Shown here: positions 4,070-63,536 of the stretch, in pieces
Numbering within the stretch: the first letter of the stretch is position 1
Layout of the letters: every line of letters starts with the position of its first letter
Assembly: GCA_026874595.1 (NCBI GenBank)
Contig: CM049310.1
Coordinates: 3,162,001-3,226,000, forward strand
Direction of reading: 5' to 3'
DNA length: 64,000 bases
Source: Sipunculus nudus
Taxonomy: Eukaryota > Annelida > Sipuncula > Golfingiida > Sipunculidae
The notes under the pieces: model-generated
Databases searched by the model: none
Told to the model about the DNA's origin: nothing
Seen by the model: only the letters and a program-made list of their open reading frames with translations
Made by a program: the position numbers and the translations under genes

Positions 4070-7000
4070 GTAAGTAGTACTGCTTTATGTGATTCATTAT
4101 ATGATTCAGTCTGTAGAGGGTCACCAGATATCAGGAGAAAATTGGTCAAAGTTTGCGATTCAAAAAAGAAAAATTACGGGGGAACTTGTCATTTGTCTGA
4201 ATCTGCCACTTTTGTGGTCATTTGAAACATGTGTCTGGTTAACTATTTATCTGTATTAAAAAAATGATGAATAGACTGACAGTTGTCAACCATTGATACT
4301 GAAACTCAAGGCCTGCCAGGTTTCATTGTGGGTCTGACACCATGCAGTTAGGAGGTACATATAGTGCCACTTTAATATCCCCTCACAACCCGTTGCGATA
4401 GGGATATAGTAACACCTCCATTCTTGCGTTTATCTGTCCGTCCGGCATTGGCTTGTTGATTTATTTCAAACCAAACTGTGTGAACAAAACCTTTCATCTT
4501 GCACATATGGCTCACTCACCCATAGATGAAGAACCCAAACAATTATAAAGTCACTGGGTCAAAGGTCATGGCCACAGGATCCACTTCTTGAAAAAGCTTG
4601 TAGACCCATTTTATGCCAAACCATTGGACTAAAACCTTTCATCTTGCAAATATGGCTAACCTACCCATGGGTTAAGACCCCTATCAATTTTGAGGTCACA
4701 GGGTCAAAGGTTATGGCTACAGGGCCCAGTTCTTGAAAAAGCTTGTGGACCCATTTAAAGCCAAACTGTTTGACCTAAACCTTTTATTTTGCAAATATGG
4801 CTCACTCATCCATGGATGAAGACCCCTAATGATTCTATGGTCACAGGGTCAAAGGTCAAGGCCATAAAGGCACACTTCTTGAAAAAGCTTGTGGACCCAT
4901 TTAGCCAAACAGTGTGACCAAAACCTTTCCTCTTGCACATATGGCTCACCCACCCATGGATGAAGATCCCTATTGATTTATGGTCACAGGGTCAAAGGTC
5001 ACAGCCACAGGGACCACTTCTTGAAAAAACTTGTGGACCCAAATTAGGCCAAACCGTTTGACCTAAACCTTTCATCTTGTAAATATGGCTCACTCACCCA
5101 TGGATGAAGAAACCTATTGATATCAAGGTCACAGGGTCAAAGGTCAAGGCCACAAGGGTCACTTCTTGAAACAGCTTGTGGACACATTTAAAGCCAAACC
5201 GTTTGACCAAAATTTTTCCTTTTGCAAATATAGTTCACCCCTTCTATGGATGAAAAACCCTATTGATTTTGAGGGCAAATGTCATGGCCACACAGCCCCC
5301 TTCTTGAAAGGCTTGTGGACCCATTTGAAGCCAAACTTTTCTACATGCAAAACCTTTTCATCATGCAAATATGGTTCACCCACCCATGGATGAAGAACCC
5401 TATTGATTTTGAGGTCACAGAGTCATAGGTCATGGCAGCACTCATTTTCACACTGTGCAATACACGCATTCTAATTATACCCCTTGCGAGGGGATGCTAC
5501 ACTTTGCGGTGCCCTTGTTTTGCTTTAATGTACTTTGAATGCCTAAAAGAAGATAAATGATCCAAGCAGTTCAAGCAGGGTGGACACGATGAGTTACTAT
5601 AACTGTCCTTTAATATTCATGATTTACATTTCAAAGAATATCACTTATATCAGAAAGACAGAAACTGACCTTAATTGGAACTATTGCTTTGTATGTCTGT
5701 ATTATATTATGCACAAAAGAGAGTCTCCCCACTGACAGAAAACAATGGCCTGATTCTTTCTCAGATGATAAATTTCTCACAGCAGATAATGGTCAGTTGA
5801 GAGTCAGTATTTTTATTTGCAAAAAAAATGAACCAACAAAACCTAACAGGTCTAAATTCTGGCTTATTTCAGGCACATTTTCATATTCTCTGTTTCGTTC
5901 CATTCTGAGAAAAATGTGGGGAACTGTGCTGTGATATTCATTAGAAACTGACTTGGTGTTTTCATTAAATAATGCTACTTGAAAAGTTTGTTTTATTTTT
6001 CAAATTTGCTTTCAGAAGTTTACATGAAAACTGTGCCTAATTTTTCACTTGATGGTTTGTATGGTTTGCATAACATGGTTTAGCACATTAATTTGAAGCT
6101 GCCAAACTATGAATGCTGGCACTGCAAGGGAGGTTCACCATGTATATTGCTTGTATAATTAGCACCATTCACATAAAAATCACATTTTCAGAGCAGAGAT
6201 TTAAATGCAAACAAATTCTGGTTATCAACACCATCACTGTTGCATTAACAACACTATGATTGCAATCTTAATTGCAAGCTTTAATTCCCTTTACTGAAAT
6301 GATAATGACTTTGGTCTGGTTAAATGTTTGCATCACATACTATATCATTGAATAGAAATCAAGCATTGATATAGCTATTTTGGGTCACTATGAAAAATAA
6401 AATTGAAAATGCAGGTCAGTTTGGCTGTATGTAATTCAGAACATTATGAGATATGTTAGAATCATATATGTGTTCTGTTCTATATACTCCTTTCACAATT
6501 TCATTCGTTTAAACTAATTCCATTTACCCACTACTTGCAAAGCCCACATTTTCCATATAAGGTGAGGAGCACTGGGCAGAATCCTTGATATCTCATTATC
6601 ATTATTGGGAATATTCATGGCAGTCATGTGCAGCAAAGCCTGCCTATGCAAGCACTGAGTAAGTGGAATAACTTCAGACAAATGAAACACAGTCACTGTG
6701 CAAGGAGTGTAACTTGTCCATGAGGTCCATGCATACTCTGTGTAAAATGTGAACATATCTTGTTATAACACAATTAAACAAGTGCTGTGAAAATCTTGCT
6801 ACACTTGCAGTGACCTACTAAAGGAAATGTGTAATGTTTTAACTGATTACTGTAATTTTGTACTCATTATTTAACTGATGTTTTCCATGTATTGTTTCCA
6901 GCCCTGCCCAGCCCCCTTTTGATGACGCCCAAACCTCGGTTTCGGAAGCGAGACAAAGTGATGTTCTATGGCAGGAGAATCCTGAGGAAGGTGAGGATGG

Positions 7001-28000: not shown

Positions 28001-31000
28001 TACTCCCATAACAAGGGGCTTGCTGAAGCTAGAGATATTTTGTCAGGGATGTAACATTATTTAATCAAGATTCAATTGAATACCCAAAATTAGTTCTGAA
28101 TTTTTAAAATTTTATAAGTTATTAGTATAAATATAAAATCAGTACCTTAAATTTTGCCCAACTTTGACCATTTCACTTTTGTTTCATGTGAGCTCTGTTT
28201 ATATAATTTTCATATCATGCACACATAAGGATTTCAGCTTTTTAGTTTAGAAAGCAGAAAGAAATTGGCCAAAAATTGTAGCTTTTATTAATGTTTTTAT
28301 GAGACCATGTCAGACCTTGGCTCTCTCAAGCCACTCTTGAGTCACCTGTATGTTGACCTTTATGAACTTTCAGCAAATTATGCACGCTTGGGGCGAGGCA
28401 TATACTGGGGCAGCAAGGCAGGTTATGGCCAGCCACAGTTGATCCAGGTGTCCAACCCAACTCATCTAGTAGTTTTAACCAACAACATAACAATAAACAA
28501 TAAATTAATCAATTTTTATTGGTTTTTAATAACAAATTAAAGAAAAATAGAAAAGGAATTTGTTAGTTTATAATAATAGGGAATTAACTTGCAGTTACTG
28601 ATGATATAAGAATCTTGTATCGATGGATAGAATGTCACGTATTCCAAATAACACCATGCAGTCACATATGGCATTTTTCAGTTCAATTTTAATAATAAAA
28701 GAGAAAATCATATTATTCATTACTAATCATTAGGGATCATATGAAGGAAATTAATGATAGACAAAGATGCAGTTGATAATATTAATCTAGATTCCTACTG
28801 TGTCTAGTGTGTACATTGATGTGAAATTAGTCCAAAATAAATATATCACATTTATTTTTTTTTAATATAAATAAAAGCCATAAAACCAGGTACTTATGAT
28901 CATTATTTAAATGTGTGAATTTTGTACATTCTGGATTCTCAACACCATTGTTTGGTGAAAACTGAATAAATACCAGACATGGTGGGAATACTTTGCAATT
29001 GTATTTAGATACGAATATGAATATGTACTCCATTATAAAATTTCTTGCATAAAGAATGGGAATTCAGGTAAAAATGAAAGTATATGAATACCAGTGCAAA
29101 TACTTTCCAAATGTATTCATGAATGCATTCATAAATATATTCTTTATTATTATTTTAATAATCATTTCAGTTATATTTCATTTTAAAAATCATACGATTC
29201 TCTTATTATTTTTAATAAAAATTATATCTGGGACAATATTTGTAATTTTTAATAAATAGTTAAACTGTTATATTATATGTTCTGCTTATAAGTTATATGG
29301 CCAAGTCAAAATCTGTGTGACAATAGTACTCCATTTGTTAATAAAATAAATGAAATCAATTCTCTTCTCTGTCTCCAAAGGTACTATCAAAATCATACAT
29401 AAGCTTAACAACAACAACTCATAATACAGCTTATACTTATTACCACAAAAAACCAGCATGTGCCTCATTTCTAAATCATATTTTTTTATCATATATAACA
29501 GCTGAGCGCCGTGACCCATAGGTCCCTTGTTTCTAAAATTTGTCTCTATAAGATTGTGGTAATAAATTTCAGATCAATCTAACATCCAATATGGCCCCAG
29601 GGCTGCCATTTGAGGAACTGCATGGTAACCGCAGGGCCCTAATTGAGGACCTTTTTTGTCCCATACCTCTAGTTTACTCATGAGTAAAGAGTAAATTAAT
29701 GCAGTGTTGCATTGAAACAGCAGCATCTTGTATTAATTAACATCTGTTGTACTTAATATTTGCTGATCTTTCTGGTTTCTTCAATAGAGCTAAACATTAA
29801 GAAATTCAAGTTCTCTGCATGCATATTTCCCTTAGGTGAATAGCTTTCATTACACAACTTAATTTTCTCCTGAACAATATTGAACAGTTGGTTAATTTTC
29901 TCATTCATCTCTCTTCATCTGTGTTCATCATTTTATTGTTTTCTGAGCCTGTTTTCTTTTAAATAAGGATTTCTCTTATCCCACAAATATAAACCTGAAA
30001 ACCAGGAGGCTTGATAATTATAATCATTCTTATTTATTTATTTATCATTATAATCCTGATTCAATAAATAGTGTCACCTACAGGTCATGGGCATGAAAAA
30101 AAATTGTGATGGCTGTGAAGTATTTAACCTTGACTTGTTTGTTATTTTCAGATCATCATGGTGATGCCTGTGTAGTATTTAACTTTGACTTGTGTGTTAT
30201 TTTAAGATCATCATGGTGATGCCTGTGTAGTATTTAACTTTGACTTGTATGTTATTTTCAGATCATCATGGTGATGCCTGTGTAGTATTTAACTTTGACT
30301 TGTGTGTTATTTTAAGATCATCATGGTGATGCCTGTGTAGTATTTAACTTTGACTTGTATGTTATTTTAAGATCATCATGGTGATGCCTGTGTAGTATTT
30401 AACTTTGACTTGTGTGTTATTTTCAGATCATCATGGTGATGCCTGTGTAGTATTTAACTTTGACTTGTGTGTTATTTTAAGATCATCATGGTGATGCCTG
30501 TGTAGTATTTAACTTTGACTTGTATGTTATTTTCAGATCATCATGGTGATGCCTGTGTAGTATTTAACTTTGACTTGTGTGTTATTTTAAGATCATCATG
30601 GTGATGCCTGTGTAGTATTTAACTTTGACTTGTGTGTTATTTTCAGATCATCATGGTGATGCCTGTGTAGTATTTAACTTTGACTTGTATGTTATTTTCA
30701 GATCATCATGGTGATGCCTGTGTAGTATTTAACTTTGAATTGTGTGTTATTTTCAGATCATCATGGTGATGCCTGTGTAATATTTAACTTTGACTTGTGT
30801 GTTATTTTCAGATCATCATGGTGATGCCTGTGTAGTATTTAACTTTGACTTGTGTGTTATTTTAAGATCATCATGGTGATGCCTGTGTAGTATTTAACTT
30901 TGACTTGTGTGTTATTTTCAGATCATCATGGTGATGCCTGTGTAGTATTTAACTTTGACTTATGTGTTATTTTCAGATCATCATGGTGATGCCTGTGTAG

Positions 31001-55000: not shown

Positions 55001-58000
55001 TGTGATCCCTGAGGGGCTGCTAAACATGATCAAGAGGAAGTACCCGCAGATCGTAACACGCCTTGTTCACCTCCTGGGGCAAAGGATTCTGGGAACACTC
55101 AAGAATCGCAATGTTGCAGTCCTTTCAGGTATAAATCATTGAGCTAAGCAAGTAGTCTTTGCTGTTATGGCTCCACTACTCAAATCCATTATTGTGTCAG
55201 TCTGAATATTAGTGCAGAAATATCATTAACTGTCCATCGCACATAAAAAGACCAATCATTGGGTTTCCATGCCTTCCTGGAAATCAGGGAAAATTTAGAC
55301 AATCTTATTGTGTTTTTCTAGGGTGTAAAGTTAGGGAATTATGAAATGGTCCATGAAATATTCATTCCAGTGAGAGGATGTTCTCTGTCAAATTTAAGAC
55401 CCATCAAAATCCAGTGTGGCCATCTTTACAACAAAGGCATGGTGGGACCATTTAGAATCCTGGAGGTTAACTGTCCAAGTCATTGCTATTATATTTATAT
55501 GTGATATTTTTCTTTTCAGAACATCCAAATGTTGACCCTCGCCCATCAGTTGCTAACCTGGCAACAGTTGCCATCCTGCCAGTCTCAGAGGATGTACCCC
55601 TGTACAATTTTACCTTGGAATTACAGTTCTCTCTTAATAATATAGGTAAGAAATTGTTTTCTGTGTTTATATAATCCAAAAGGGATTTGCCCTAACTTTG
55701 AGATCCATTGAAAATTCAAATCACAGATATTTATACTACCATGCTTCAGGTGTTCTTAAAGGTCTTCAAAAGTATATTGTAACTTGAAAGTTTTAGGTTA
55801 ATCCTAATTATGTCTCTTGTGACTGGTAAATAACACATCAAGGTTAGCCAAGGATTATCAGACATTCTGTTAATGTAAAACTCCAGTGTTTTTGTATGGA
55901 TAATGATGTATGCAAAATGTTGATTATATCATTAATGTTATTCATGTTATAAAGCTCAGGTGGAAATGTAAATGAAATGCAGAAACACATTAACTTTTGT
56001 AAAAAGGGTTTGAACACATAATAGTTCAAACTACTTGTAATTAAAGTGATATAGGCTTTTTCCATTGCAGCATAGAGTTCATAAAGCAGAGCACCTCTCA
56101 TGAAAGTATACAGGACAAAGACTTTAAATGCAGATATTGTATAAGATGATTTAACACTAAATGGTACTAAAAAGCATATACAACTATGTATGTAATAATG
56201 ACCATAATTTTAAGACACCCCATGCTTGTTCCAGGGCCTACTTTAAGACTGAATAGTGATATTATAGAGAAAAGGCTGGGAGCTGCTGCCTTGGATAAGT
56301 AAGTCACATTTCATGTATATATATTTATAATAAAACCTTTTAGTGTTAACTGGCTTAAGTCAACTGCCCTGCTTGTATCAAAGTTACATCCTGGAAGTTC
56401 TAGTAAACTGTTTAAATTAAAACCAAATTACCAACTTATGTCAAACCTCCAATCTGCAAGTTTTCTGTCTGTATAATTGACTTAACACCACAAGGTTTTA
56501 TTGCATGTACATTTATGTAAAGACGAGCTGTTGACTCCTGTATGATAGAACTAAGTACTTGTGTATCAAACTGACTAGGTGAGGTGCAAGTGCCCAGGAG
56601 ACTTTGGTGTAGAGACTTCTGTGGAAGGTTTATGGAAGAAGTGCAAAGGGAAGCATTACATGGCTTTTAGCACAAACACTCAGTATGCAGTGGCCAAATT
56701 AAATTCATTTTAACTCATTCAACTTTACCCTGCTTTAAACTTCAGCCTTTGCTGTGTATGGTTACCGGGGTGCTGGCACAGGTCCAAAAATAATCCAACC
56801 AATGAGAGTGCTGTATTGCAGATTTGAATATTACGAAACTTGGTAGAAAAAACACAATAAATGTCTCACTTGAACATTCATGTCTGTATGCCAGCACCCT
56901 GGAAATATTATACAGCAAAGGCTGGCTTTGCAATCAGTGGATGAGTTGAATGAGTTAGATTTAGTGTAACTTGACACTGCAAAGGAGAAACAAAGTAGTA
57001 TCAGAAGTCAAGTACTTGGCATTATGAAACATACTATACTGTAACCTTGGTTGTTTTTTTCCAGCATGAACGAGTACAGACTGCTGAGCTGGCTGGGTCA
57101 GCAAGAGGACATCCATCGCATGGTGCTGTACCAGTGTGACTACAGGATAACAGCCTGGACACAGCGCTGTATCAGACAGGCTGACTGTATACTCATTGTA
57201 GCCCTTGCTGATAAGGAACCCACTGTAGGCCAGGTAAGTCCACCAGGCACTGCACTGCTTTTCTGTACAACAGGATAGTTCATAACATTATTTAATATGC
57301 CAATAAATCTGCATGCAAGTTCATCTAAGAACTTCAAAACATTCAGATATCTTTTAATGATGTACCAATATTTTGGGTTTCATTCTATCCATATTTCTTA
57401 AGTTATCTCGCAGACTGTGTGATAAAACTCTGTATCACTTCATGCACGGCTTAATTTTTATTTACTTTAAAATGAAGTTTTAAAAAATATATACATATAT
57501 AAACAGAGTCGTGAGTTTGAACCTGGCAGTTGATATTGATTTTTAACATCAGCATCCTATGAGGTCAATTGTGTGCATATTCAGTGCTCACAAACACTCA
57601 CAAGTTCTTTTCACAGATTGCTGTAAAACCTTTTTTACTGTATGTTGAGACATCAATATCTGCTTAAGTGAGACATTGCTTTAATGTCCAGATTGAGAAG
57701 CAGCTGGAGCACATTGCAGTCCGTGCTCAGAAAGAGCTGATCCTGCTTCACACGGAGGATGCACCACGACCGACCAACACGGTGGAATGGCTGAATGCTC
57801 GAGGGTGGTGCACCAGTCACCACCACATCCGTGGACCAAAGAGAGTGTTCAGCAAGCGGGCCAAGCAAAAAGTGGTGAGTAACGCTTCACAGAAAGTCAG
57901 TCAACAAAGGGAGTGTTCAGCAAGCGGGCCAAGCAAAAAGTAGTGAGTAACGCTTCACAGAAAATCAGTCAACAAAGAGAGTGTTCAGCAAGCGGGCCAA

Positions 58001-61000
58001 GCAAAAAGTGGTGAGTAACACTTCACAGAAAATCAGTCAACAAAGAGAGTGTTCAGCAAGCGGGCCAAGCAAAAAGTGGTGAGTAACGCTTCACAGAAAA
58101 TCAGTCAACAAAGAGAGTGTTCAGCAAGCGGGCCAAGCAAAAAGTGGTGAGTAACGCTTCACAGAAAATCAGTCAACAAAGAGAGTGTTCAGCAAGCGGG
58201 CCAAGCAAAAAGTGGTGAGTAACGCTTCACAGAAAATCAGTCAACAAAGAGAGTGTTCAGCAAGCGGGCCAAGCAAAAAGTGGTGAGTAACGCTTCACAG
58301 AATGTCAGTCAACAAAGAGAGTGTTCAGCAAGCGGGCCAAGCAAAAAGTGGTGAGTAAGGCTTCACAGAATGTCAGTCAACAAAGAGAGTGTTCAGCAAG
58401 CGGGCCAAGCAAAAAGTGGTGAGTAAGGCTTCACAGAATGTCAGTCAACAAAGAGAGTGTTCAGCAAGCGGGCCAAGCAAAAAGTGGTGAGTAACGCTTC
58501 ACAGAAAATCAGTCAACAAAGAGAGTGTTCAGCAAGGGGACCAAGCAAAAAGTGGTGAGTAAGGCTTCACAGAATGTCAGTCAACAAAGAGAGAGTTCAG
58601 CAAGCGGGCCAAGCAAAAAGTGGTGAGTAAGGCTTCACAGAAAATCAGTCAACAAAGAGAGTGTTCAGCAAGCGGGCCAAGCAAAAAGTGGTGAGTAACG
58701 CTTCACAGAAAATCAGTCAACAAAGGGAGTGTTCAGCAAGCAGACCAAGCAAAAAGTGGTGAGTAACGCTTCACAGAAAATCAGTCAACAAAGAGAGTGT
58801 TCAGCAAGCGGGCCAAGCAAAAAGTGGTGAGTAACACTTCACAGAAAATCAGTCAACAAAGAGAGTGTTCAGCAAGCGGGCCAAGCAAAAAGTGGTGAGT
58901 AACGCTTCACAGAATGTCAGTCAACAAAGAGAGTGTTCAGCAAGCGGGCCAAGCAAAAAGTAGTGAGTAACGCTTCACAGAAAATCAGTCAACAAAGAGA
59001 GTGTTCAGCAAGCGGACCAAGCAAAAAGTGGTGAGTAACGCTTCACAGAATGTCAGTCCACAAAGAGAGTGTTCAGCAAGCGGGCCAAGCAAAAAGTGGT
59101 GAGTAACGCTTCACAGAAAATCAGTCAACAAAGAGAGTGTTCAGCAAGCGGACCAAGCAAAAAGTGGTGAGTAACGCTTCACAGAATGTCAGTCAACAAA
59201 GAGAGTGTTCAGCAAGCGGACCAAGCAAAAAGTGGTGAGTAACGCTTCACAGAATGTCAGTCAACAAAGAGAGTGTTCAGCAAGCGGACCAAGCAAAAAG
59301 TGGTGAGTAACGCTTCACAGAACGTCAGTCAACAAAGAGAGTGTTCAGCAAGCGGACCAAGCAAAAAGTGGTGAGTAACGCTTCACAGAAAATCAGTCAA
59401 CAAAGAGAGTGTTCAGCAAGCGGGCCAAGCAAAAAGTGGTGAGTAACGCTTCACAGAATGTCAGTCAACAAAGAGAGAGTTCAGCAAGCGGGCCAAGCAA
59501 AAAGTTGTGAGTAACGCTTCACAGAGAGTCAGTCAACATGCAAGTCAGGCATGTAGTAACAAGGTAACAGTTCACAGAAGTGTAATGGCCTCTTTTATGT
59601 TGGCTATATTTAAGCTGTCATAAATAGAGTATTCTTGGATAAAACCTACCTTGCTTGCTTGTAGCTTGCTCATAAGAACAATAAGTTTGTGATAATTCTG
59701 AACTAGGAATAAATATGAGATTTTATAACCATCTGTTTCATCCATATACAGTGCATACAGATATTAAGAATATTTATATTAATTTTTGAAAATTAACATT
59801 TAAATATAAAACCTCAATATTGAATGCAACATAGTACTATTAACAGCTCTTGGGTCTGTGTAAGTGTAAATATTTGATTATATTTGTTTCATTTATTTAC
59901 AGACAGAGTATTACAGACAGTTATTTGAGACCTCAGAGCCTGACAAACTGTCAGATTTCAGCAGACTGGCCCGAGTCCTGACTGGAACTGCTATTGGATT
60001 AGTTCTTGGTGGTGGTGGGGCAAGGTTAGTGACCTGAAACACTTTTGTTTTTAAAAACAATGAAAGGAGATACACAGTATATATGGTAAATGATGCCCGT
60101 AACTATCTGATTCTCATTGCCTACTTTCCTTTCATAATCATAATAAACAATTTAATTATCAAGTTGTAAATGGCCACTGCCAATTACAAAGTCTAACAAT
60201 TTAAACCATCAGTATTTCTTTTCAGTGTTAATCATGCATTTCATGATATTAATATTATAAGCATTTAGGATTTCAGATTGAGCTTAATTGCATGTATTTT
60301 TCTTTGTAGTTGGTTTTGAAACCAGATATATACAAGGCACATGTTGATAATGTTGATGATGTTTTCATTGTAATCAGAGGTTCTGCTCATGTGGGCATGA
60401 TCCGTGCCATGCGTGAGGCTGGAATTCCAATAGACATGGTCGGTGGGGTCAGCATAGGGGCCTTTATGGGAGCTCTCTACTGTGAGGAGGCAAATATAAC
60501 CAGATTCATCCAAAGAGCACGAGAGTGGTCAATGGTGAGTGTAAGCTTACATGGTTATGGTGCAGAATAATGGTATACCAATTTGACTGGCATGAATCAC
60601 TTGAAAGTCACATAAATACCGAGAAAGTCACACTAATGAACCAGAGATGGACCATACTACTAAAACCATCCATATCGGTTGTATGTCTGTCTGTTTTTAC
60701 CCTCTGATGAGTAACAAAGGTACATTTTAGTGCAAGCTGCTTTTGACAATGTGTATCCAATGATCCAAATTATGGAATGCACAGCAATTTTTGGATATAT
60801 CTTTGAAGGCATTTAATTTCTGCAGGGGTAACAGGTGGGAAAAAGCTCGATGCAAGGTTAATCTAAACATCAGCTTTACCTTCCTTTAGTTTTCCTTGTC
60901 TCCACCAGGTGTGTTCCTTACACACTGAGCATATAGACAAGTGATATCTTGTGAATACTGGGACTGTCATTGTACACTTTTTCTCTTAAACAGTGACCCA

Positions 61001-63536
61001 ACAGGTCACCTAGTGTTTGTAGTTATTCATACATGTGACAAGATTATAGGTAGGATTATCACTGTCAAATAAAATGACACTAGTACAGATATTGTTCACT
61101 TCTAAACCTGCAACAACATTATCTTAATTAAACCTCAAAGCTGCTGCCATCTATAGGCAGATCTTATAACAACCTCCTGTAATGGATGCAGAATTTGTGC
61201 TTCCTGGATATTTTTGTGTATATAACAGGAATGCCAAAGGAATTTTCACATTGTCATGAAATGCATGTGTTGTTTATACTTACAGGACATGGCACGCCTT
61301 GGCCCTAAATTGCTGGACCTGACCTACCCAATGTCTGCCATGTTTTCTGGCAAGTATTTTACATATAGCATGCTAAATTATTACAAATATATAGTTATTG
61401 CTTTTTAGCCCTACCATATTCTTTTACTTGAACAATCTAATGTTGTGTTAAAGTATGTAATATTTTGTATTATATTATGTTATATTACACAATTAAATAT
61501 TATGTAACGGTACAAATCATATGCATTTTTACGATGTATTTTTATATAGTATTATATCACAAGAAAAATACTGTTTATGGTATGATATATTATATGATAT
61601 AACATGCTATGAAATGATTTTATATGAAATGCAGATGAATATAAGATAAATTTCCCCTTCATTAACAGTCAGCATGAATAATACATTAATAATTTTCATT
61701 GACATGTTTTGAGGACTATACACCTTTCCTTCACAATCTTGTTCATATACATATGTAGAGCTGCTGATTGATGGTTTGTACACACAGGTCGTCAGTTTAA
61801 CAGTTCCATAGAGAAGGTGTTTGGTAACCACCAGGTGGAGGACCTGTGGATCCCGTACTTCTGTCTCACGACTGACATCACGGCATCCAAGATGAGGGTA
61901 CACACCAGTGGTAGGTGGTCACAGAGCAGGAACGTTCTTGTGGGCTGACAGTCATGTCAGAAACAGTAACTGTCCTATGGATGTATAAAAAGATTAGTAA
62001 TTAATTAGAAACCTCATTTCAAGTGTGTATGGAGAACTAACTGACAGAGGTTACAAGTCCGTAGCCTTATCACTTAGTTTAAAGTGCACATTACTCTGAA
62101 AATTGAGCTTTTATCCTCGTGTTGGGAGACAAGACCCATACTATCAGGTTTGGTAATGAGATATTGTGCACATGCATATTCCACATAAATTACATATTAG
62201 AGTAGTCACATGATAACAATTGTCACATGATATACCCAGCTCGAGATGATATAATGCCATAGGTCAATATTTTAGTTTAAATTAAAAAATCCAGGCCCTT
62301 CAGACGCCCCATATGACCACCAGGCAGCCATCTTGAAAACCTGAGCATAGTGGGGCCCTATAGGACATTAATGGTCCCAATCACTTCTAGTTTCTATAGT
62401 CTCAGACAGACACAGTTCATGGTAAATGTTTTGTTTATGATGCCTGCAGGTTCCCTGTGGAGGTACATGCGGGCCAGCATGTCTTTGTCAGGGTACATCC
62501 CTCCACTGTGTGATCCTGTAGACGGTCATCTGCAAAGTCTCAGACAAACACAGTTCATGGTAAATGTTTTGTTTATGATGCCTGCAGGTCCCCTGTGGAG
62601 GTACGTGCGGGCCATGCAGCATGTCTTTGTCAGGGTACATCCCTCCCCTTTGTGATCCTGTAGACATTCATCTGCAAAGTCTCAGACAAACACAGTTCAT
62701 GGTAAATGTTTTGTTTATGATGCCTGCAGGTTCCCTGTGGAGGTATGTGCGGGCCAGCATGTCTTTGTCCGGGTACATCCCTCCACTGTGTGATCCTGTA
62801 GACAGTCATCTGCAAAGTCTCAGACAAACACAGTTCATGGTAAATGTTTTGTTTATGATGCCTGCAGGTTCCCTGTGGAGGTACATGCGGGCCAGCATGT
62901 CTTTGTCAGGGTACATCCCTCCACTGTGTGATCCTGTAGACAGTCATCTGCAAAGTCTCAGACATATACAGTTCATGGTAAATGTTTTCTTTATGATGCC
63001 TGCAGGTTCCCTGTGGAGGTACGTGCGGGCCAGCATGTCTTTGTCCAAGTACATCCCTCCACTGTGTGATCCTGTAGACGGTCATCTGCAAAGTCTCAGA
63101 CAAACACAGTTCATGGTAAATGTTTTCTTTATGATGCCTGCAGGTTCCCTGTGGAGGGACATGCGGGCCAGCATGTCTTTGTCAGGGTACATCCTTCCAC
63201 TTTGTGATCCTGTAGACAGTCATCTGCAAAGTCCCAGACAAACACAGTTCATGATAAATGTTTTCTTTATGATGCCTGCAGATTCCCTGTGGAGGTACGT
63301 GCGGGCCAGTATGTCTTTGTCAGGGTACATCCCTCCACTGTGTGATCCTGTAGAGGGTCATCTGCAAAGTCTCAGACAAACACAGTTCATGGTAAATGTT
63401 TTGTTTATGATGCCTGCAGGTTCCCTGTGGAGGTACGTGCGGGCCAGCATGTCTTTGTCAGGGTACATCCCTCCACTGTGTGATCCTGTAGACGGTCATC
63501 TTCTGCTGGATGGAGGATACGTTAACAACCTACCTG
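3985..63536 (+). CDS. PNPLA6: PNPLA6/7 (neuropathy target esterase / Swiss cheese) gene, 28 exons seen, 3' end outside window
   Basis: Spliced gene for a patatin-like phospholipase/lysophospholipase of the NTE family, which deacylates phosphatidylcholine and lysophosphatidylcholine at the ER membrane. Conceptual splicing of the listed exons gives about 1,085 residues. A membrane anchor is at about 1-22 and a basic linker with the [12 protein letters not shown] motif at about 40-52. Three cNMP-binding-like domains follow at about 130-280, 465-600 and 600-710, then a patatin domain from about 905. The catalytic set is visible: GGGGARG loop, D951, S957 (GVSIG) and D1077 (DGG). By alignment from memory these correspond to D960, S966 and D1086 of human NTE, with the same 120-residue Ser-Asp spacing. 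All junction phases agree. Invertebrates usually carry one gene for the vertebrate PNPLA6/PNPLA7 pair, so the symbol denotes that ancestral orthologue. The true start may lie in an upstream exon, and the last roughly 250-300 residues are missing here. Confidence 0.96.
4070..6901 (+). other. Intron 1
   Basis: 2.8 kb intron between the anchor exon and the FRKRDK exon. The transposon at 4372-5519 fills the middle; the remainder is AT-rich unique sequence with no recognised feature. Confidence 0.85.
4372..5519 (+). mobile_element. HINE-like element, family ATCCCCTC, with ~144-bp internal tandem repeats
   Basis: The 5' end TATCCCCTCACAACCCGTTG pairs with the 3' end ATTATACCCCTTGCGAGGGG. It then has a small hairpin (CACTTTGCGGTG) and CCCTTGTTT. 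The interior holds about seven diverged units of ~144 bp, each with CATATGGCTCACTCACCCAT-like, GGTCACAGGGTCAAAGGTCA and CTTCTTGAAAAAGCTTGTGG blocks. No transposase. Confidence 0.75.
6902..6990 (+). CDS. PNPLA6: PNPLA6 exon 2 (basic [12 protein letters not shown] linker)
   Basis: Acceptor TTTCCAG, then [20 protein letters not shown] followed by [10 protein letters not shown]. The FRKRDK-FYGR-I-RK stretch is a hallmark just after the NTE membrane segment. The exon ends in phase 0 at AAG|gtgagg. This donor is the first of about 67 near-identical copies, because the 72-bp array begins across this junction and includes the last 9 exon bases. Confidence 0.95.
6982..11804 (+). repeat. 72-bp tandem array (~67 copies) carrying the exon 2 splice donor
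   Basis: The unit runs from gtgaggatgg to cgactgaggaag (72 bp; a few units are 74 or 68 bp). It begins exactly at the exon 2 donor and recreates CTGAGGAAG|gtgagg in nearly every copy. 72 bp is 24 codons, so long open frames appear on both strands; these are by-products of the period. From the real reading frame, extending the exon past 6990 gives AAG GTG AGG ATG GTG TGA, a stop after four codons. Variant units recur at fixed spacings, which shows higher-order duplication within the array. Confidence 0.97.
11805..14016 (+). other. Rest of intron 2
   Basis: AT-rich unique intronic sequence between the 72-bp array and exon 3. I see no exon, RNA gene or clear transposon end in it. Confidence 0.7.
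14017..14108 (+). CDS. PNPLA6: PNPLA6 exon 3 (basic linker)
   Basis: Acceptor TTCTCTAG and donor AA|gtaagt. It encodes [20 protein letters not shown] followed by [11 protein letters not shown]. Phase 0 in, phase 2 out. It matches the region of NTE that links the anchor to the first regulatory domain and leads into the conserved K-I-L-R of the next exon. Confidence 0.93.
14109..20511 (+). other. Intron 3
   Basis: 6.4 kb intron. Apart from the 27-bp minisatellite (16205-17560) it is AT-rich. A short GC-rich piece at about 18950-19040 (CGCCCGCTAGCCTGTGGCGG) looks like a fragment of some repeat but has no identifiable ends. Confidence 0.75.
16205..17560. repeat. 27-bp minisatellite (~50 diverged copies)
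   Basis: The consensus is close to GGACACCTTCCTTCCAAACC plus CTCCCCA, about 27 bp with 1-3 bp length drift. The 9-codon period leaves frames open on both strands (DTFLPNPLL-like on +, GRCPGEGLE-like on -). These are not genes. Unlike the four splice-site arrays, it does not touch an exon. Confidence 0.93.
20512..20652 (+). CDS. PNPLA6: PNPLA6 exon 4 (linker into cNMP-like domain 1)
   Basis: Acceptor TTAATCAG, donor AG|gtcagt. It encodes [20 protein letters not shown], a short acidic stretch with FLEADLPE, and [13 protein letters not shown]. Both F-L-E-A-D-L and P-P-E-V-M-Y-M-L-K-x-V-R are diagnostic NTE signatures just before cNMP domain 1. Phase 2 in and out. Confidence 0.97.
21107..21266 (+). 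CDS. PNPLA6: PNPLA6 exon 5 (cNMP-binding-like domain 1, first half)
   Basis: Acceptor TATTACAG, donor GTG|gtaagc. It encodes [18 protein letters not shown] and then the beta-roll strands with G-D[16 protein letters not shown]. This is the start of the cyclic-nucleotide-binding-like fold. Ends in phase 0. Confidence 0.97.
21415..21605 (+). mobile_element. Internally deleted copy of the ATCCCCTC element
   Basis: Begins TTTTTATCCCCTCAAAG...GAGGGGATATAGTAACGTCTCC and ends ATTATACCCCCATGGGAGCG, then CGACTTTGCAGCACTCTTG. These are the same ends as the 4372-5519 element, with almost all the internal tandem repeats missing. It lies inside intron 5. Confidence 0.7.
21735..21815 (+). CDS. PNPLA6: PNPLA6 exon 6 (cNMP-like domain 1, cassette region)
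   Basis: An 81-nt, phase 0/0 exon between TTATTGCAG and gtaagt. It encodes [20 protein letters not shown] followed by SVIDVLT, at the position of the phosphate-binding cassette. The canonical GE is replaced by GD, as in vertebrate NTE, so nucleotide binding is doubtful. Confidence 0.96.
22458..22519 (+). CDS. PNPLA6: PNPLA6 exon 7 (cNMP-like domain 1)
   Basis: A 62-nt exon encoding [20 protein letters not shown] plus a split Arg. Acceptor CTTGTAG, donor AG|gttaat (a non-consensus +4 to +6). It matches the V-S-A-x-A-x-x-D-x-T-V-L-R strand of the NTE family. Confidence 0.95.
22980..23046 (+). CDS. PNPLA6: PNPLA6 exon 8 (cNMP-like domain 1, C-helix)
   Basis: A 67-nt exon encoding [20 protein letters not shown] then VMQ, the helical end of cNMP domain 1. 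Acceptor ACTTGTAG, donor CAG|gtgagt, phase 0 out. The downstream intron is 8 kb, and a transposon nest begins 25 bases after the donor. Confidence 0.96.
23732..29531 (+). mobile_element. Middle element of the nest (AGCTCAGCTGA family, copy 2)
   Basis: Left part 23732-23957 and right part 27130-29531 align continuously with the uninterrupted copy at 40866-43491. The join at ...CCTCAATTTTTTATTAAAAACC is intact there. It ends AACAGCTGAGCGCCGTGACC then CATAGGTCCCTTGTT. High similarity to copy 4, including the matching A/T-rich blocks 28300-29519 and 42257-43479, indicates fairly recent movement. Confidence 0.8.
23958..27129 (+). mobile_element. Innermost element of the nest (AGCTCAGCTGA family, copy 3)
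   Basis: Begins TTTTAGCTCAGCTGACTATA and ends TCAGCTGAGCGCCGTGACCC then ATGGGTCCCTTGTT, inserted at a T-rich site of the middle element. Its interior from about 24810 onward matches the element at 512-3154, including the poly-C tract, and provides the empty site for the hAT-like insertion there. Confidence 0.8.
29641..30097 (+). other. Unique intronic sequence before the 55-bp array
   Basis: AT-rich intron sequence between the transposon nest and the acceptor array; no feature recognised. Confidence 0.7.
30098..31153 (+). repeat. 55-bp tandem array (18 decoy copies) carrying the exon 9 splice acceptor
   Basis: Unit: 12 exon-like bases (ATCATCATGGTG), then atgcctgtgtag, then intron ending in ttattttcag or ttattttaag. 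Unit starts fall every 55 bp from 30152 to 31087, and the true exon starts at 31142. Eleven decoys end in CAG and seven in AAG. A degenerate unit precedes the first at about 30098. Joining exon 8 to any decoy gives ATC ATC ATG GTG ATG CCT GTG TAG, an in-frame stop after seven codons. Confidence 0.97.
31142..31222 (+). CDS. PNPLA6: PNPLA6 exon 9 (end of cNMP-like domain 1)
   Basis: Phase 0/0, 81 nt, encoding [20 protein letters not shown] then SNELINP. R-L-Q-R-V-T-F-x-A-x-H-N-Y-L-G-L is strongly conserved in NTE. The acceptor ATTTTCAG is the last of 19 near-identical acceptors, because the 55-bp array upstream repeats the acceptor and the first 12 exon bases. Donor CCT|gtaagt. Confidence 0.97.
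31233..31842 (+). mobile_element. Two truncated AGCTCAGCTGA-family 5' ends
   Basis: A first 5' end (TTAGCTCAGCTGTCATCTGA) at about 31240 and a second (TTTTTAGCTTAGCTGACTGT) at about 31464, the latter inserted in the former. The second leads into ~260-bp units (CCGTTAACAGGGCACAAAT ... GACTAGTGGTGCCACCTG) that continue after the next insertion at 33562. No 3' terminus was found for either. Confidence 0.6.
31843..33561 (+). mobile_element. Element with ATGCCCCCGCC start, ATCTAG end and ~180-bp tandem units
   Basis: The 5' end is ATGCCCCCGCCACAACGTGG then CCGGGGCATATAG; the 3' end is GCCCCAGGTGGGGGCATTCG, hairpin GTGTCATTCCGACAC and ATCTAG. The hairpin followed by a CTAG end is Helitron-like. 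The interior holds about nine ~180-bp units (GGACTTTTTTTCGCAATGCC, CAGTTACAGATCGAGTTCGC, GTTGACCTACTTTTGA). The sibling copy at 49275-50711 shares both ends. Confidence 0.75.
33562..34950 (+). mobile_element. Continuation of the ~260-bp-unit element
   Basis: After the 31843-33561 insertion the GGGCACAAATTGTAA...GTGGCGCCA units resume. They are interrupted once more by a 700-bp insertion (33989-34688) and then run to the start of the next element at 34951. Confidence 0.6.
33989..34688. mobile_element. 700-bp insertion with 9-bp direct repeats
   Basis: CTGGACATA occurs at 33980-33988 and again at 34689-34697, either side of a GC-richer 700-bp block that interrupts the repeat unit. Other units read ...ACTGGACCTAGAATCTTC without interruption. 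Weak inverted ends are visible (CATACGCTC / CATATGCTC if part of the repeat belongs to the element). No coding frame of note. A hAT-like or other DNA transposon is plausible. Confidence 0.65.
34951..36913 (+). mobile_element. HINE-like element, family GCGAACCTGTG
   Basis: The 5' end TTTAGCGAACCTGTGAGC is inverted at the 3' end as GCACAGGTTCGCATT, followed by the palindromic AGGCCTGTAGGCCT and TGTT. CGTCGTCCGTCG follows the start. The interior has ~215-bp units with TCATCTGCCTTGGGATAA, AAATTTTGCAGG and GGTGGCGCCACCTGCAACCA. A second copy of the 3' end lies at 36711-36737. Confidence 0.75.
36914..37072 (+). mobile_element. Fragment of an AGCTCAGCTGA-family element interior
   Basis: Matches the interior of the elements at 512-3154 and 23958-27129 (GGTGAATAAAATTAAGCATG, GATGCCATGTTGTGG). 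Neither end is present. Confidence 0.65.
37170..37302 (+). CDS. PNPLA6: PNPLA6 exon 10 (Ser-rich inter-domain linker)
   Basis: Acceptor TCCTTCTAG, donor A|gtgagt. It encodes [20 protein letters not shown] and on to NVINFDDN, a polar, serine-rich, low-complexity stretch. It lies where NTE has its variable, probably disordered linker between cNMP domains 1 and 2. Homology is weak; support comes from splice sites, phase (0 to 1) and composition. Confidence 0.85.
37527..37583 (+). CDS. PNPLA6: PNPLA6 exon 11 (linker)
   Basis: A short exon after CTTTTCAG encoding [20 protein letters not shown] (the first and last codons are split). Phase 1 in and out. The donor G|gtacag is weak, so this exon could be alternatively spliced; at 57 nt (19 codons) skipping it would keep the frame. 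Confidence 0.75.
37584..39661 (+). other. Intron 11, mostly a repeat-derived segment
   Basis: From about 37925 to 39030 there are diverged ~220-bp units (TCATATCTCCGGAGTGATTC, GGTGGCACCACC) ending in GGCACCTGCGGTGCC then TAGAAATATCTAG. This is a hairpin plus CTAG end like the element at 31843, but I could not fix the 5' end. A G10 tract lies at about 38971. The rest is AT-rich. Confidence 0.55.
39662..39822 (+). CDS. PNPLA6: PNPLA6 exon 12 (linker with PGS...[12 protein letters not shown])
   Basis: Encodes [20 protein letters not shown], then a stretch containing [19 protein letters not shown] and SPPIKA. It resembles the human NTE linker motif (M-P-G-D...S-D-F-D-M-A-Y-E-R-G-R-I). Acceptor ATTACCAG, donor GCT|gtatgt, phase 1 to 0. 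Confidence 0.88.
39823..40865 (+). other. Left part of intron 12
   Basis: AT-rich unique sequence, then from about 40470 (CCACGCCACCAAAGGTGCCG) a partial element with CTGTCCGTCTGTC and ~150-bp units, without a recognisable 3' end. Confidence 0.5.
40866..43491 (+). mobile_element. HINE-like element, family AGCTCAGCTGA, copy 4 (uninterrupted)
   Basis: Starts TTTTTAGCTCAGCTGACTAT and ends AACAGCTGAGCGCCATGATC then CATGGGTCCCTTGTT; 2.63 kb. It is the uninterrupted counterpart of the split element at 23732-29531 and shows exactly where copy 3 inserted there. No protein-coding capacity; the short A/T-rich frames shared by both copies are not genes. Confidence 0.8.
43492..44054 (+). other. Unique part of intron 12
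   Basis: Non-repetitive AT-rich sequence containing the possible 18-nt microexon at 43815. Confidence 0.6.
43815..43832 (+). CDS. PNPLA6: Possible 18-nt PNPLA6 microexon
   Basis: A good polypyrimidine tract and acceptor (GCTCCTTTTCCAG) is followed 18 nt later by a gtaggt donor. The 18 nt keep phase 0/0 between exons 12 and 13 and would add WSTRSR. It lies in one of the few non-transposon pieces of this 8.7 kb intron. No homology supports it, so it could be chance. Confidence 0.35.
44055..46257 (+). mobile_element. HINE-like element, family AGTTCACTCTGTGAA
   Basis: The 5' end TTTTTAGTTCACTCTGTGAA is inverted at the 3' end as TTCACAGAGTGAAC, followed by the palindrome AGACCCCTGGGTCT and CTTGTT. 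GTCCGCCGTCCACTG follows the start. About five ~340-bp units (AGGTGGCGCCACCTGTGTTG, AACTGCTGCAGCCTTCAGTT) lie inside, then shorter ones. No coding capacity. Confidence 0.78.
46735..46905 (+). mobile_element. tRNA-derived SINE-like copy 1
   Basis: Contains a Pol III B-box-like GGTTCGAATCC at about 46814, with an A-box-like AGGGAAAAGGTTGGT about 45 bases upstream. The tail CCCCTGAGCAATTTGTCTTT is shared with the copy at 47005. Not a functional tRNA: the cloverleaf does not close. Confidence 0.55.
47005..47175 (+). mobile_element. tRNA-derived SINE-like copy 2
   Basis: A-box-like TAGCAAAGCGGTTGGT, B-box GGTTCGAGTCC, shared tail CCCCTGAGCAATTTGCCTTC and an A-rich end (AAATAAAAAAAGG). Same orientation as copy 1, 270 bp away. 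Confidence 0.6.
48523..48708 (+). CDS. PNPLA6: PNPLA6 exon 13 (linker into cNMP-like domain 2)
   Basis: Starts after CATGATAG (AGT ATG GAA...) and ends GAG|gtagaa, phase 0/0, 62 codons. A Ser/Thr-rich segment ([18 protein letters not shown]) leads into the helix [20 protein letters not shown], which aligns with the helix before cNMP domain 2 in NTE. Confidence 0.92.
48849..48926 (+). CDS. PNPLA6: PNPLA6 exon 14 (cNMP-like domain 2)
   Basis: 78 nt, phase 0/0, between GATTGTAG and gtagac. It encodes [20 protein letters not shown] then IQQGDQ. The pattern G-T-x-I-x-x-Q-G-D-Q is conserved in NTE domain 2. Confidence 0.96.
49275..50711 (+). mobile_element. Second copy of the GCCCCCG...ATCTAG element, interrupted
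   Basis: 5' end AAGCCCCCGTCACAAAGTGG then CCGGGGCATATAG; 3' end GCTCCAGGAGGGGGCATTTG, the degraded hairpin GTATCGTTCCGACGC and ATCTAG. Same family as 31843-33561, but most of the ~180-bp units are missing or displaced by the insertion at 49379. Confidence 0.7.
49379..50430 (+). mobile_element. AGCTCAGCTGA-type 5' end with ~260-bp units, nested
   Basis: Begins TTTTAGCTCAGCTGACTGTT, followed by GTCCGTCCAGCCGTCCGGCC and about three-and-a-half ~300-bp units (CTGTTAACAGGGCACAAATT ... GACTGGTGGCGCCACCTGTA). The right limit near 50430, where the host element resumes, is approximate. No 3' terminus of its own is seen. Confidence 0.6.
51247..51321 (+). CDS. PNPLA6: PNPLA6 exon 15 (cNMP-like domain 2)
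   Basis: 75 nt, phase 0/0, between ATTGCAG and gtaagt. It encodes [20 protein letters not shown] then KESEE, the D-x-S-L-x-F-V-x-x-G-x-L-x-V beta strands of domain 2. Confidence 0.96.
51322..52277 (+). other. Intron 15
   Basis: Contains a (CA)n microsatellite at about 51400-51422 and a GC-richer block at about 51540-51890 unlike the neighbouring introns. A tRNA-like B-box (GAGGTTCAGGCCC) near 52208 suggests a degraded SINE at about 52150-52240. Confidence 0.55.
52278..52411 (+). CDS. PNPLA6: PNPLA6 exon 16 (cNMP-like domain 2, cassette)
   Basis: Encodes [20 protein letters not shown], then [20 protein letters not shown] and SDFYR. P-G-E-L-V-G-x-L-A-V-L-T-G-E...T-I-R-A is the phosphate-binding-cassette-like segment of NTE domain 2. 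Acceptor TTTTCAG, donor AG|gtgagt, phase 0 to 2. Confidence 0.97.
52578..52709 (+). CDS. PNPLA6: PNPLA6 exon 17 (domain 2 C-helix into domain 3)
   Basis: Encodes [20 protein letters not shown], then [14 protein letters not shown] and [15 protein letters not shown]-x-D-F-A-x-D-W is an NTE signature. Acceptor TTTGTAG, donor AG|gtgatt, phase 2 in and out. Confidence 0.97.
52710..53804 (+). other. Intron 17
   Basis: AT-rich intron with a poly-C run at about 52828-52841; nothing else recognised. Confidence 0.7.
53805..53978 (+). CDS. PNPLA6: PNPLA6 exon 18 (cNMP-like domain 3)
   Basis: Encodes [20 protein letters not shown], then [20 protein letters not shown] and [10 protein letters not shown]. 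It retains G-E-L-V-G...R-A-T-T, the best-preserved cyclic-nucleotide cassette of the three domains. Acceptor ACTCCAG, donor AG|gtatgt, phase 2 in and out. Confidence 0.98.
53979..54985 (+). other. Intron 18
   Basis: AT-rich intron with the SINE-like element at 54465-54770 and a ~26-base poly-A run at about 54882-54907. Confidence 0.7.
54465..54770 (+). mobile_element. tRNA-derived SINE, ~300 bp
   Basis: Starts AACTGGCTTCGATGGCTCAG with an A-box (TGGCTCAGGGGTAAAG) and a decayed B-box (GAGTTTCTAAT). A GC-rich body (CGGTCGGCCCCCACCGAGGG, GGGGGGTCCTCGGTGTTATG) follows, then an AT-rich tail. The head matches a tRNA gene 5' half, but the anticodon arm and B-box are degenerate. Confidence 0.65.
54986..55128 (+). 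CDS. PNPLA6: PNPLA6 exon 19 (domain 3 C-terminal helices)
   Basis: Encodes [20 protein letters not shown], then [20 protein letters not shown] and a short tail. R-D-T-E-L-A-x-x-P-E-G and Y-P-Q-x-V-T-R-L-x-H-L-L are conserved in NTE. Acceptor ACTTACAG, donor G|gtataa, phase 2 to 1. Confidence 0.97.
55129..56234 (+). other. Introns 19 and 20
   Basis: Introns 55129-55519 and 55646-56234, on either side of exon 20 (55520-55645), are AT-rich and show no recognisable element. Confidence 0.7.
55520..55645 (+). CDS. PNPLA6: PNPLA6 exon 20 (linker to patatin region)
   Basis: Encodes [20 protein letters not shown], then [20 protein letters not shown] and [14 protein letters not shown] is conserved in NTE. 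Acceptor CTTTTCAG, donor G|gtaaga, phase 1 in and out. Confidence 0.97.
   Translation, partial: NIQMLTLAHQLLTWQQLPSCQSQRMYPCTILPWNYSSLLII
56235..56298 (+). CDS. PNPLA6: PNPLA6 exon 21
   Basis: 64 nt encoding [20 protein letters not shown] plus D and a split Asn. G-P-T-L-x-L-N-S-D-I-I-x-x-R-L-G is almost identical to vertebrate NTE. Acceptor GTTCCAG, donor AA|gtaagt, phase 1 to 2. Confidence 0.96.
56299..57064 (+). other. Intron 21
   Basis: AT-rich intron with a small inverted-repeat element at 56711-56957. Confidence 0.75.
56711..56957. mobile_element. 247-bp MITE-like inverted-repeat element
   Basis: TAACTCATTCAACT at 56711 is inverted as AGTTGAATGAGTTA ending at 56957. Further in, CAGCCTTTGCTGT and GGGTGCTGGCA are inverted as TGCCAGCACCC and ACAGCAAAGGCTG. 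The arms total roughly 80 bp each, around a ~90-bp centre. No clear target duplication; superfamily not assigned. Confidence 0.7.
57065..57233 (+). CDS. PNPLA6: PNPLA6 exon 22
   Basis: Encodes [20 protein letters not shown], then [20 protein letters not shown] and [21 protein letters not shown]-x-Q-Q-E-D-x-H-R and R-Q-A-D-C-I-L-I-V are conserved in NTE. Acceptor TTTTCCAG, donor CAG|gtaagt, phase 2 to 0. Confidence 0.97.
57234..57691 (+). other. Intron 22
   Basis: AT-rich intron. GTGAGTTTGAACCTGGCA near 57511 resembles a tRNA B-box, but no A-box or full SINE can be delimited. Confidence 0.6.
57692..57874 (+). CDS. PNPLA6: PNPLA6 exon 23
   Basis: Encodes [20 protein letters not shown], then [20 protein letters not shown] and [18 protein letters not shown]-x-R-x-W-C is an NTE signature. 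Acceptor ATGTCCAG, donor GTG|gtgagt, phase 0/0. The last ~37 bases and this donor are the first unit of the 68-bp array that follows. Confidence 0.97.
57838..59540 (+). repeat. 68-bp tandem array (25 copies) carrying the exon 23 splice donor
   Basis: Unit: about 34-37 bases of the exon 23 end (GAGTGTTCAGCAAGCGGG ... AAAAAGTG), then 31-34 bases of intron beginning gtgagtaacg. Copy starts fall every 68 bp from 57841 to 59473 (24 intervals). Donors read GTG|gtgagt in most copies, GTA|gtgagt in a few, and GTT|gtgagt in the last. 68 is not a multiple of 3. If exon 23 is extended to the second donor, the frame runs into AAA AAG TAG at about 57941, so decoy use truncates the protein. Confidence 0.97.
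59541..59902 (+). other. End of intron 23
   Basis: Unique AT-rich sequence between the 68-bp array and exon 24, with a TTTATTTACAG acceptor. Confidence 0.8.
59903..60024 (+). CDS. PNPLA6: PNPLA6 exon 24 (start of patatin domain, oxyanion loop)
   Basis: Encodes [20 protein letters not shown], then [20 protein letters not shown] plus a split Arg. [11 protein letters not shown] and the glycine-rich [10 protein letters not shown] define the start of the esterase domain and its oxyanion hole. Acceptor TTTACAG, donor AG|gttagt, phase 0 to 2. Confidence 0.98.
60025..60377 (+). other. Intron 24
   Basis: AT-rich intron between the oxyanion-loop exon and the catalytic-serine exon; no further feature seen. 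Confidence 0.8.
60378..60534 (+). CDS. PNPLA6: PNPLA6 exon 25 (catalytic serine, GVSIG)
   Basis: Encodes [20 protein letters not shown], then [20 protein letters not shown] and [13 protein letters not shown]. The nucleophile Ser957 is in G-V-S-I-G (codon at 60451-60453). Asp951, six residues earlier, is also kept. The usual NTE motif is G-T-S-I-G; here Thr is replaced by Val. Acceptor TAATCAG, donor ATG|gtgagt, phase 2 to 0. Confidence 0.98.
60535..61285 (+). other. Intron 25
   Basis: Unique sequence with no recognised element. Confidence 0.75.
61286..61349 (+). CDS. PNPLA6: PNPLA6 exon 26 (ends at a GC donor)
   Basis: Encodes [20 protein letters not shown] then S and one base of Gly. L-D-L-T-Y-P-x-x-x-M-F-x-G matches NTE. 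The only donor that joins the conserved MFSG to exon 27 in phase is G|gcaagt, so this is a GC-AG intron (61350-61787). Acceptor CTTACAG. Confidence 0.95.
61350..61787 (+). other. GC-AG intron 26
   Basis: Begins gcaagt and ends cacacag. It contains a strongly AT-rich stretch with repeated TATTATAT motifs at about 61450-61620. Phase 1, splitting the Gly of MFSG. Confidence 0.9.
61788..61910 (+). CDS. PNPLA6: PNPLA6 exon 27 (patatin domain)
   Basis: Encodes [20 protein letters not shown], then [20 protein letters not shown] and S. F-N-x-S-I-x-x-V-F...I-E-D-L-W-x-P-Y-F-x-x-T-T-D-I-T-A-S is highly conserved in NTE. Acceptor CACACAG, donor G|gtaggt, phase 1 in and out. The next acceptor is present in eight tandem copies. 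Confidence 0.97.
61911..62387 (+). other. Left part of intron 27
   Basis: Unique sequence leading to the 138-bp array. The stretch ...CTATAGTCTCAGACAGACAC at its end is the single-copy ancestor of the intronic half of the array unit. Confidence 0.75.
62388..63500 (+). repeat. 138-bp tandem array: exon 28 5' part plus its acceptor, 8 copies
   Basis: Acceptor|exon starts lie at 62450, 62588, 62730, 62868, 63006, 63144, 63282 and 63420. The spacing is 138 bp except for one interval of 142. Each unit has ~53 bp of intron ending gatgcctgcag plus ~85 bp of exon. 138 is 46 codons, and the frame is open from copy 3 through copy 8 into DGG ([20 protein letters not shown] ... [13 protein letters not shown] ... 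FMMPAG). Copy 2 has a 4-bp insertion (GGCCATGCAGCATG) that shifts the frame to TGA at about 62651, so acceptors 1 and 2 are dead ends. Copies 5, 6 and 7 carry amino-acid changes (SLSKY, WRDMRA, and D for the first G). Confidence 0.97.
63420..63536 (+). CDS. PNPLA6: PNPLA6 exon 28 (catalytic Asp, DGG); last exon in window
   Basis: Encodes [20 protein letters not shown], then [19 protein letters not shown]. The catalytic Asp1077 is the D of DGG (codon 63509-63511). Acceptor GCCTGCAG is the eighth of eight. Choosing it gives a Ser-Asp spacing of 120, equal to human NTE as recalled (S966/D1086). Donor G|gtaaag. Only this copy continues into the DGG motif; the seven upstream copies stop at GGTCATCT or AGTCATCT and switch to intron-derived sequence. 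Confidence 0.95.

Follow-up and report, generated by a model that had tools for sequence, protein, structure and literature searches.

Four tandem arrays lie within a single gene of the sipunculan Sipunculus nudus, and each of them straddles an exon-intron junction. These arrays belong to a kind already known from amphioxus, where minisatellites at exon-intron boundaries have been named 'mirages'; such arrays occur in many genes of the S. nudus genome and are not peculiar to the gene in which they were noticed. Counted once each by their units, they are found at splice junctions about four times as often as expected. The four arrays were analysed in a 64,000-nucleotide stretch of contig CM049310.1 (hereafter the window, whose numbering is used for positions), and the arrays of other genes in DNA sampled elsewhere in the same assembly.

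Four arrays at the junctions of one gene

TRF recovered the four arrays at the places and with the units reported in a preliminary description of the window; they comprise 72 bp x 67 copies, 55 x 19, 68 x 25 and 138 x 8, with a 94–96% match (Table 1). The sequence, read against the located exons, shows that the repeat unit spans an exon edge of the same gene in 4/4 window arrays, and in all four the unit joins exonic to intronic sequence across the authentic junction, as is characteristic of mirages. Two of the arrays lie at donors and two at acceptors, and mirages are likewise known from either edge. The protein joined from 21 located exon pieces (853 aa; some exons of an NTE-type gene are not among these pieces) matched NTE_Ploop (E 1.1e-53) and Patatin (E 8.4e-27), as well as cNMP_binding in three stretches (E 4.3e-45). 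On the basis of these domain matches, the predicted product therefore places the gene in the PNPLA6/NTE family, so that exon edges and domains agree with the earlier view that each array straddles an exon-intron boundary of a PNPLA6-type gene. The acceptors of array 2 (n = 19) end in CAG in 12 copies and in AAG in seven, and the two types are interspersed along the array, a pattern expected from spread by exchange within it.

Table 1. Exons and junction-straddling arrays of the PNPLA6/NTE-type gene (window positions; a slash marks the splice junction)
Feature	Position	Strand	Description
Exon	6902..6990	+	NTE-type protein; authentic donor AAG/GTGAGG, copied by array 1
Array 1	6982..11803	+	72 bp x 67.0; unit, terminal 9 exonic nt + 63 intronic nt
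Array 2	30106..31153	+	55 bp x 19.1; unit, intron tail with pyrimidine tract + acceptor + ~12 exonic nt
Exon	31142..31222	+	Acceptor provided by the final copy of array 2
Exon	57692..57874	+	Authentic donor AAAGTG/GTGAGT, copied by array 3
Array 3	57837..59538	+	68 bp x 25.0; unit, terminal 38 exonic nt + 30 intronic nt
Array 4	62398..63501	+	138 bp x 8.0; unit, 52 nt intron tail + acceptor + ~82 nt of exon + 4 nt filler
Acceptors of array 4	62450, 62588, 62730, 62868, 63006, 63144, 63282, 63420		Starts of the copies
Exon	63420..63536	+	Patatin domain; joined through the final acceptor copy of array 4, which covers the acceptor and most of the exon

The preliminary description had allowed for only one further minisatellite, so that four of five would fall on splice sites, and this count has to be corrected. 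After nested TRF rows were merged, seven other arrays with a score of at least 100 were found in the gene (starting at 16347, 20896, 23198, 31928, 35687, 44223 and 49464) and one more just upstream of it (starting at 4463). A junction is therefore straddled by 4/11 arrays in the gene, against 1.12 expected (P = 0.015). The product of the chance probabilities of the four arrays alone is 7e-6, a post hoc value for a window that was singled out for this very feature. Only the four straddling arrays combine a score of at least 100 with a match of at least 94%, the others having matches of 72–89% (90% in one nested sub-row).

Some of the intronic arrays of the window (49464-50428, 35687-36447, 31928-33464 and 23198-23450) have relatives at other sampled places, as do intronic arrays of the myosin loci L011, L013 and L014. 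These related arrays have units of about 139–341 bp and form dispersed families resembling satellites, which sets them apart from the straddling arrays.

Junction arrays in other genes

Three control samples were chosen blind to the presence of arrays: 11 myosin genes (154 kb), 126 kinesin motor matches and 27 ABC-transporter matches. The myosin genes were selected by a rule set after the matches had been obtained but before the sequences were read (at least three matches within 21 kb), which yielded the 11 genes and 58 of the 75 matches; two genes were left out because of their span (C13 and C8:64.03-64.05 Mb) and others because they had fewer matches. The kinesin sample consisted of all 126 matches, with a flank of 400 bp on each side, and the ABC sample of 27 of 79 matches, for which those on chromosomes and with an open frame of at most 200 aa were taken by rank. 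TRF rows that were nested or had a score below 100 were left uncounted, and none of the separate ones among them straddled a junction.

Straddling, which was judged by eye from the TRF rows and not blind, was found for four arrays in the myosin genes (units of 82, 61, 83 and 31 bp) and for eight in the kinesin sample (L043, L053, L060, L068, L092, L102, L104 and L106), all with the same combination of exon edge and intron edge. The unit of L102, for example, consists of TTTATTTTAG plus the initial 32 exonic nt and is present in 6.6 copies in the stretch examined, and L104 has 8.5 repeats of an exon end carrying GTAAGT. These 12 arrays lie at five donors and seven acceptors. For myoE the exact donor is uncertain, yet all candidate donors are inside the array; L021 was doubtful and was scored as non-straddling. 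The 27 ABC-transporter matches contained two arrays and no straddling one. About 12 of 422 sampled junctions thus carry an array (2.8%, interval 1.6–4.9%), an approximate figure, since each HMM match was taken as one exon with two junctions.

Other features were noted in the course of this sampling. The introns of the myosin gene at L019-L020 (G000:C9:48047001-48063500) consist largely of tandem repeats, with units of 57, 48, 43, 27 (x315) and 31 bp within 16.5 kb. A muscle-type myosin gene at L002 (G000:C2:44849337-44852248) contains four consecutive matches that all cover one region of the head (about positions 109–153) and which, judged by their order, look like alternative, mutually exclusive exons. 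Many contigs (C61-C90 of G000, L121) contain near-identical sets of matches to bacterial-type cNMP-binding and ABC-transporter proteins, as if one or two bacteria, possibly symbionts, had been assembled as several copies or strains. A bacterial ORF from contig C61 had only distant relatives among the genome contigs, at two loci.

Under a null model in which units are placed at random over intron and junctions, 12 of the 36 arrays in the three pooled samples straddle a junction versus 3.12 expected (P = 1.6e-5), with 4/15 in myosin (P = 0.009) and 8/19 in kinesin (P = 0.0002; 123 kinesin matches). The pooled excess became weaker when the chance probabilities were doubled (P = 0.011) and when the two weakest straddling arrays were removed (P = 5e-4); among arrays of at least three copies, 10/27 straddle (P = 3e-5). 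The preliminary description had found the coincidence with junctions hard to put down to chance and had proposed comparing minisatellites over splice sites with a chance expectation; the comparison bears this out for the sampled genes taken together, the ABC sample contributing nothing to the excess. An automatic test with junction-centred 40-mers, which misses straddling arrays with a short exonic part, found the probe repeated nearby in 5/347 cases, compared with 18/346 for probes 160 nt into the intron; exonic probes placed 40 or 60 nt from the junction gave 0/347. Intronic sequence is therefore covered by arrays more often than junctions are, and the excess concerns the origins of arrays and not coverage: it appears only when each array is counted once by its unit.

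It could be argued that this genome is rich in minisatellites, which may form at any place and by chance land on some junctions; indeed, 24/36 control arrays do not straddle a junction, none of the ABC arrays does and TRF reveals many intronic arrays. However, the probabilities obtained for myosin, for kinesin and for the three samples together make this explanation unlikely. Our first guess at the fourfold excess is instead that tandem duplications are biased in their place of origin. A stronger version, in which splice junctions would be the preferred birthplaces of minisatellites here, through a process at exon edges that makes tandem duplications several times more often than in the nearby intron, is put forward tentatively, with rather less than even confidence. 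If it holds, arrays of spare splice sites would be present at a few in every hundred junctions, and the amphioxus mirage would be a wider animal phenomenon, a standing stock of sequence from which new exons, introns and isoforms could be made.

Decoy copies and the origin of the arrays

The splice dinucleotide is kept in 115/115 decoy copies in the window (the donor in 66/66 decoys of array 1, AG in 18/18 of array 2 and GT in 24/24 of array 3), as in mirages, the copies of which keep AG/GT. Across 14 of the 16 straddling arrays (myoE and myoJ were left out of this test), 178/187 decoys keep AG or GT versus 171.1 expected from the divergence of each array. Unit divergence in the same 14 arrays is alike in the exonic (189/4178 cells differ) and intronic parts (296/8011). 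These arrays gave no clear signal of decay or protection of the decoys, showing only a slight, non-independent tilt toward intact sites.

Splicing at a decoy would lead to a stop in 60/60 decoys tested in array 1 (the pattern used caught 61 of about 67 donors), 18/18 in array 2 and 23/24 in array 3. In array 4, copies 1–2 would also lead to a stop, and copies 3–7 would add 230, 184, 138, 92 and 46 residues in frame. This insertion would fall just before the DGG motif. Judging from the reading frame, copies 3–7 could be exonised, and array 4 may represent coding exon repeats, but a stop-free unit of 138 bp is not improbable. Given that there is no sign of decoys being purged and that the use of most of them would bring stops, the simplest account would therefore be that the outermost, authentic copy is used and the decoys are tolerated.

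These data bear on the idea, raised in the preliminary description, that the arrays are a splicing-control device, in which selection would maintain the extra donors or acceptors to tune splicing or to produce isoforms. The intact dinucleotides of the window decoys and the in-frame insertions of 46–230 aa offered by array 4 would fit such a device. However, over the 14 arrays the decoys show no constraint beyond the array average, the number of intact sites being close to that expected from general divergence; stops would result from 101/102 decoys tested in arrays 1–3; and units and junctions vary between genes. We therefore regard a splicing device as very unlikely. Even less credible is the view that the arrays were inserted or inflated by the assembler. 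The copy numbers do rest on one assembly, but in the window the copies diverge from their unit by a mean of 2–3% per position, and in arrays elsewhere the divergence reaches a quarter; both flanks are unique, and the same design, with other units, is seen on several chromosomes.

Spread of a single repeat was rejected, because the four units match only the PNPLA6-type locus: when they were used together as a query, 119/119 matches were inside this locus (the search may skip common words). Across the 0.36 Mb sampled, 0/16 straddling arrays and 7/32 other arrays had relatives at another place. The units being unrelated, the separate origins proposed earlier for the arrays stand. Exon-specific duplication was also discarded, since neither the exonic nor the intronic part of the units has a constant length, and no pattern emerged. 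The ends of the originally duplicated stretch share 2–3 nt in arrays 1–3 (CTG, GTG and CA), and array 4 has a 4-nt filler; this is what end joining or slippage would leave, although it is suggestive only.

The explanation we favour, and consider probably correct as a whole, is that of a mirage born locally at each junction. A short stretch that by chance included the exon-intron junction would have been duplicated in tandem at its own place, and then amplified and homogenised, perhaps by unequal exchange or slippage. The copy spliced would presumably be the one that remains continuous with the full exon, the first copy for a donor and the last one for an acceptor, and its use should give the normal protein. 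The decoys would lie in the intron, where they may be nearly neutral; we propose that the arrays are tolerated because the outermost authentic copy is the one that is spliced.

Comparison with known systems

Several systems share some of these features. Dispersed satellite-like repeats of oysters, carried by mobile elements, also form short tandem arrays across the genome, according to the sections available of PMC7492417; unlike these, the straddling arrays have no relatives in the sampled DNA, whereas some of the non-straddling ones do. Intron gain by tandem genomic duplication (the Rogers model), as outlined in the excerpts of PMC4974935 and PMC3443670, likewise copies splice-site sequence, but it creates a new intron inside an exon, whereas here existing junctions have been multiplied and no new intron is evident. 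Variable internal tandem repeats in human duplicated genes are also minisatellites within genes, some of them at exon-intron boundaries. They differ in that they concern recent paralogues, that their boundary repeats are said to contribute to new introns or to alternative transcripts, and that the sections available of PMC2812944 describe no general bias to junctions.

The closest parallel is provided by amphioxus, and it answers the earlier statement that no system of this kind had been described. Boundary minisatellites called mirages are described for Adh3 and for the globins BflGb6 and BflGb9 (PMC3087553), and troponin C and PGBD5 are further cases (PMC3902484). As far as the available parts of these two papers extend, mirages resemble minisatellites and consist of an exon-intron boundary duplicated in tandem, at its 5' or 3' edge, with units of tens to about 160 bp and many copies bearing AG/GT signals, all of which applies to the arrays described here; cDNA shows normal splicing, and length polymorphism and somatic instability are reported. 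No report of mirages outside amphioxus was found in the open-licence literature searched.

Within the limits of those excerpts, the S. nudus arrays differ from the amphioxus mirages in that there are four in one gene, with up to 67 copies, in a non-cephalochordate genome. Searches of this genome for GFP-family and haemocyanin proteins gave no match, which is no proof of absence. Among the PDB proteins, one globin exon came closest to a nerve hemoglobin and to hemoglobins II/III, which are clam chains; a second globin and a muscle myosin exon did not discriminate between hosts, and the globin and myosin exons as a set pointed only weakly to bivalves. Mirages have so far been described gene by gene, in amphioxus only as far as we found, and here they become countable: what is new is their number in a single gene, their presence in many genes of one genome, and a first estimate of their frequency and excess. 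If a whole-genome count confirms these values, it will raise the question of why duplications favour exon edges, provide a test of how the spliceosome chooses one among up to 67 identical donors, and offer a supply of half-made introns and exons for the study of intron gain.
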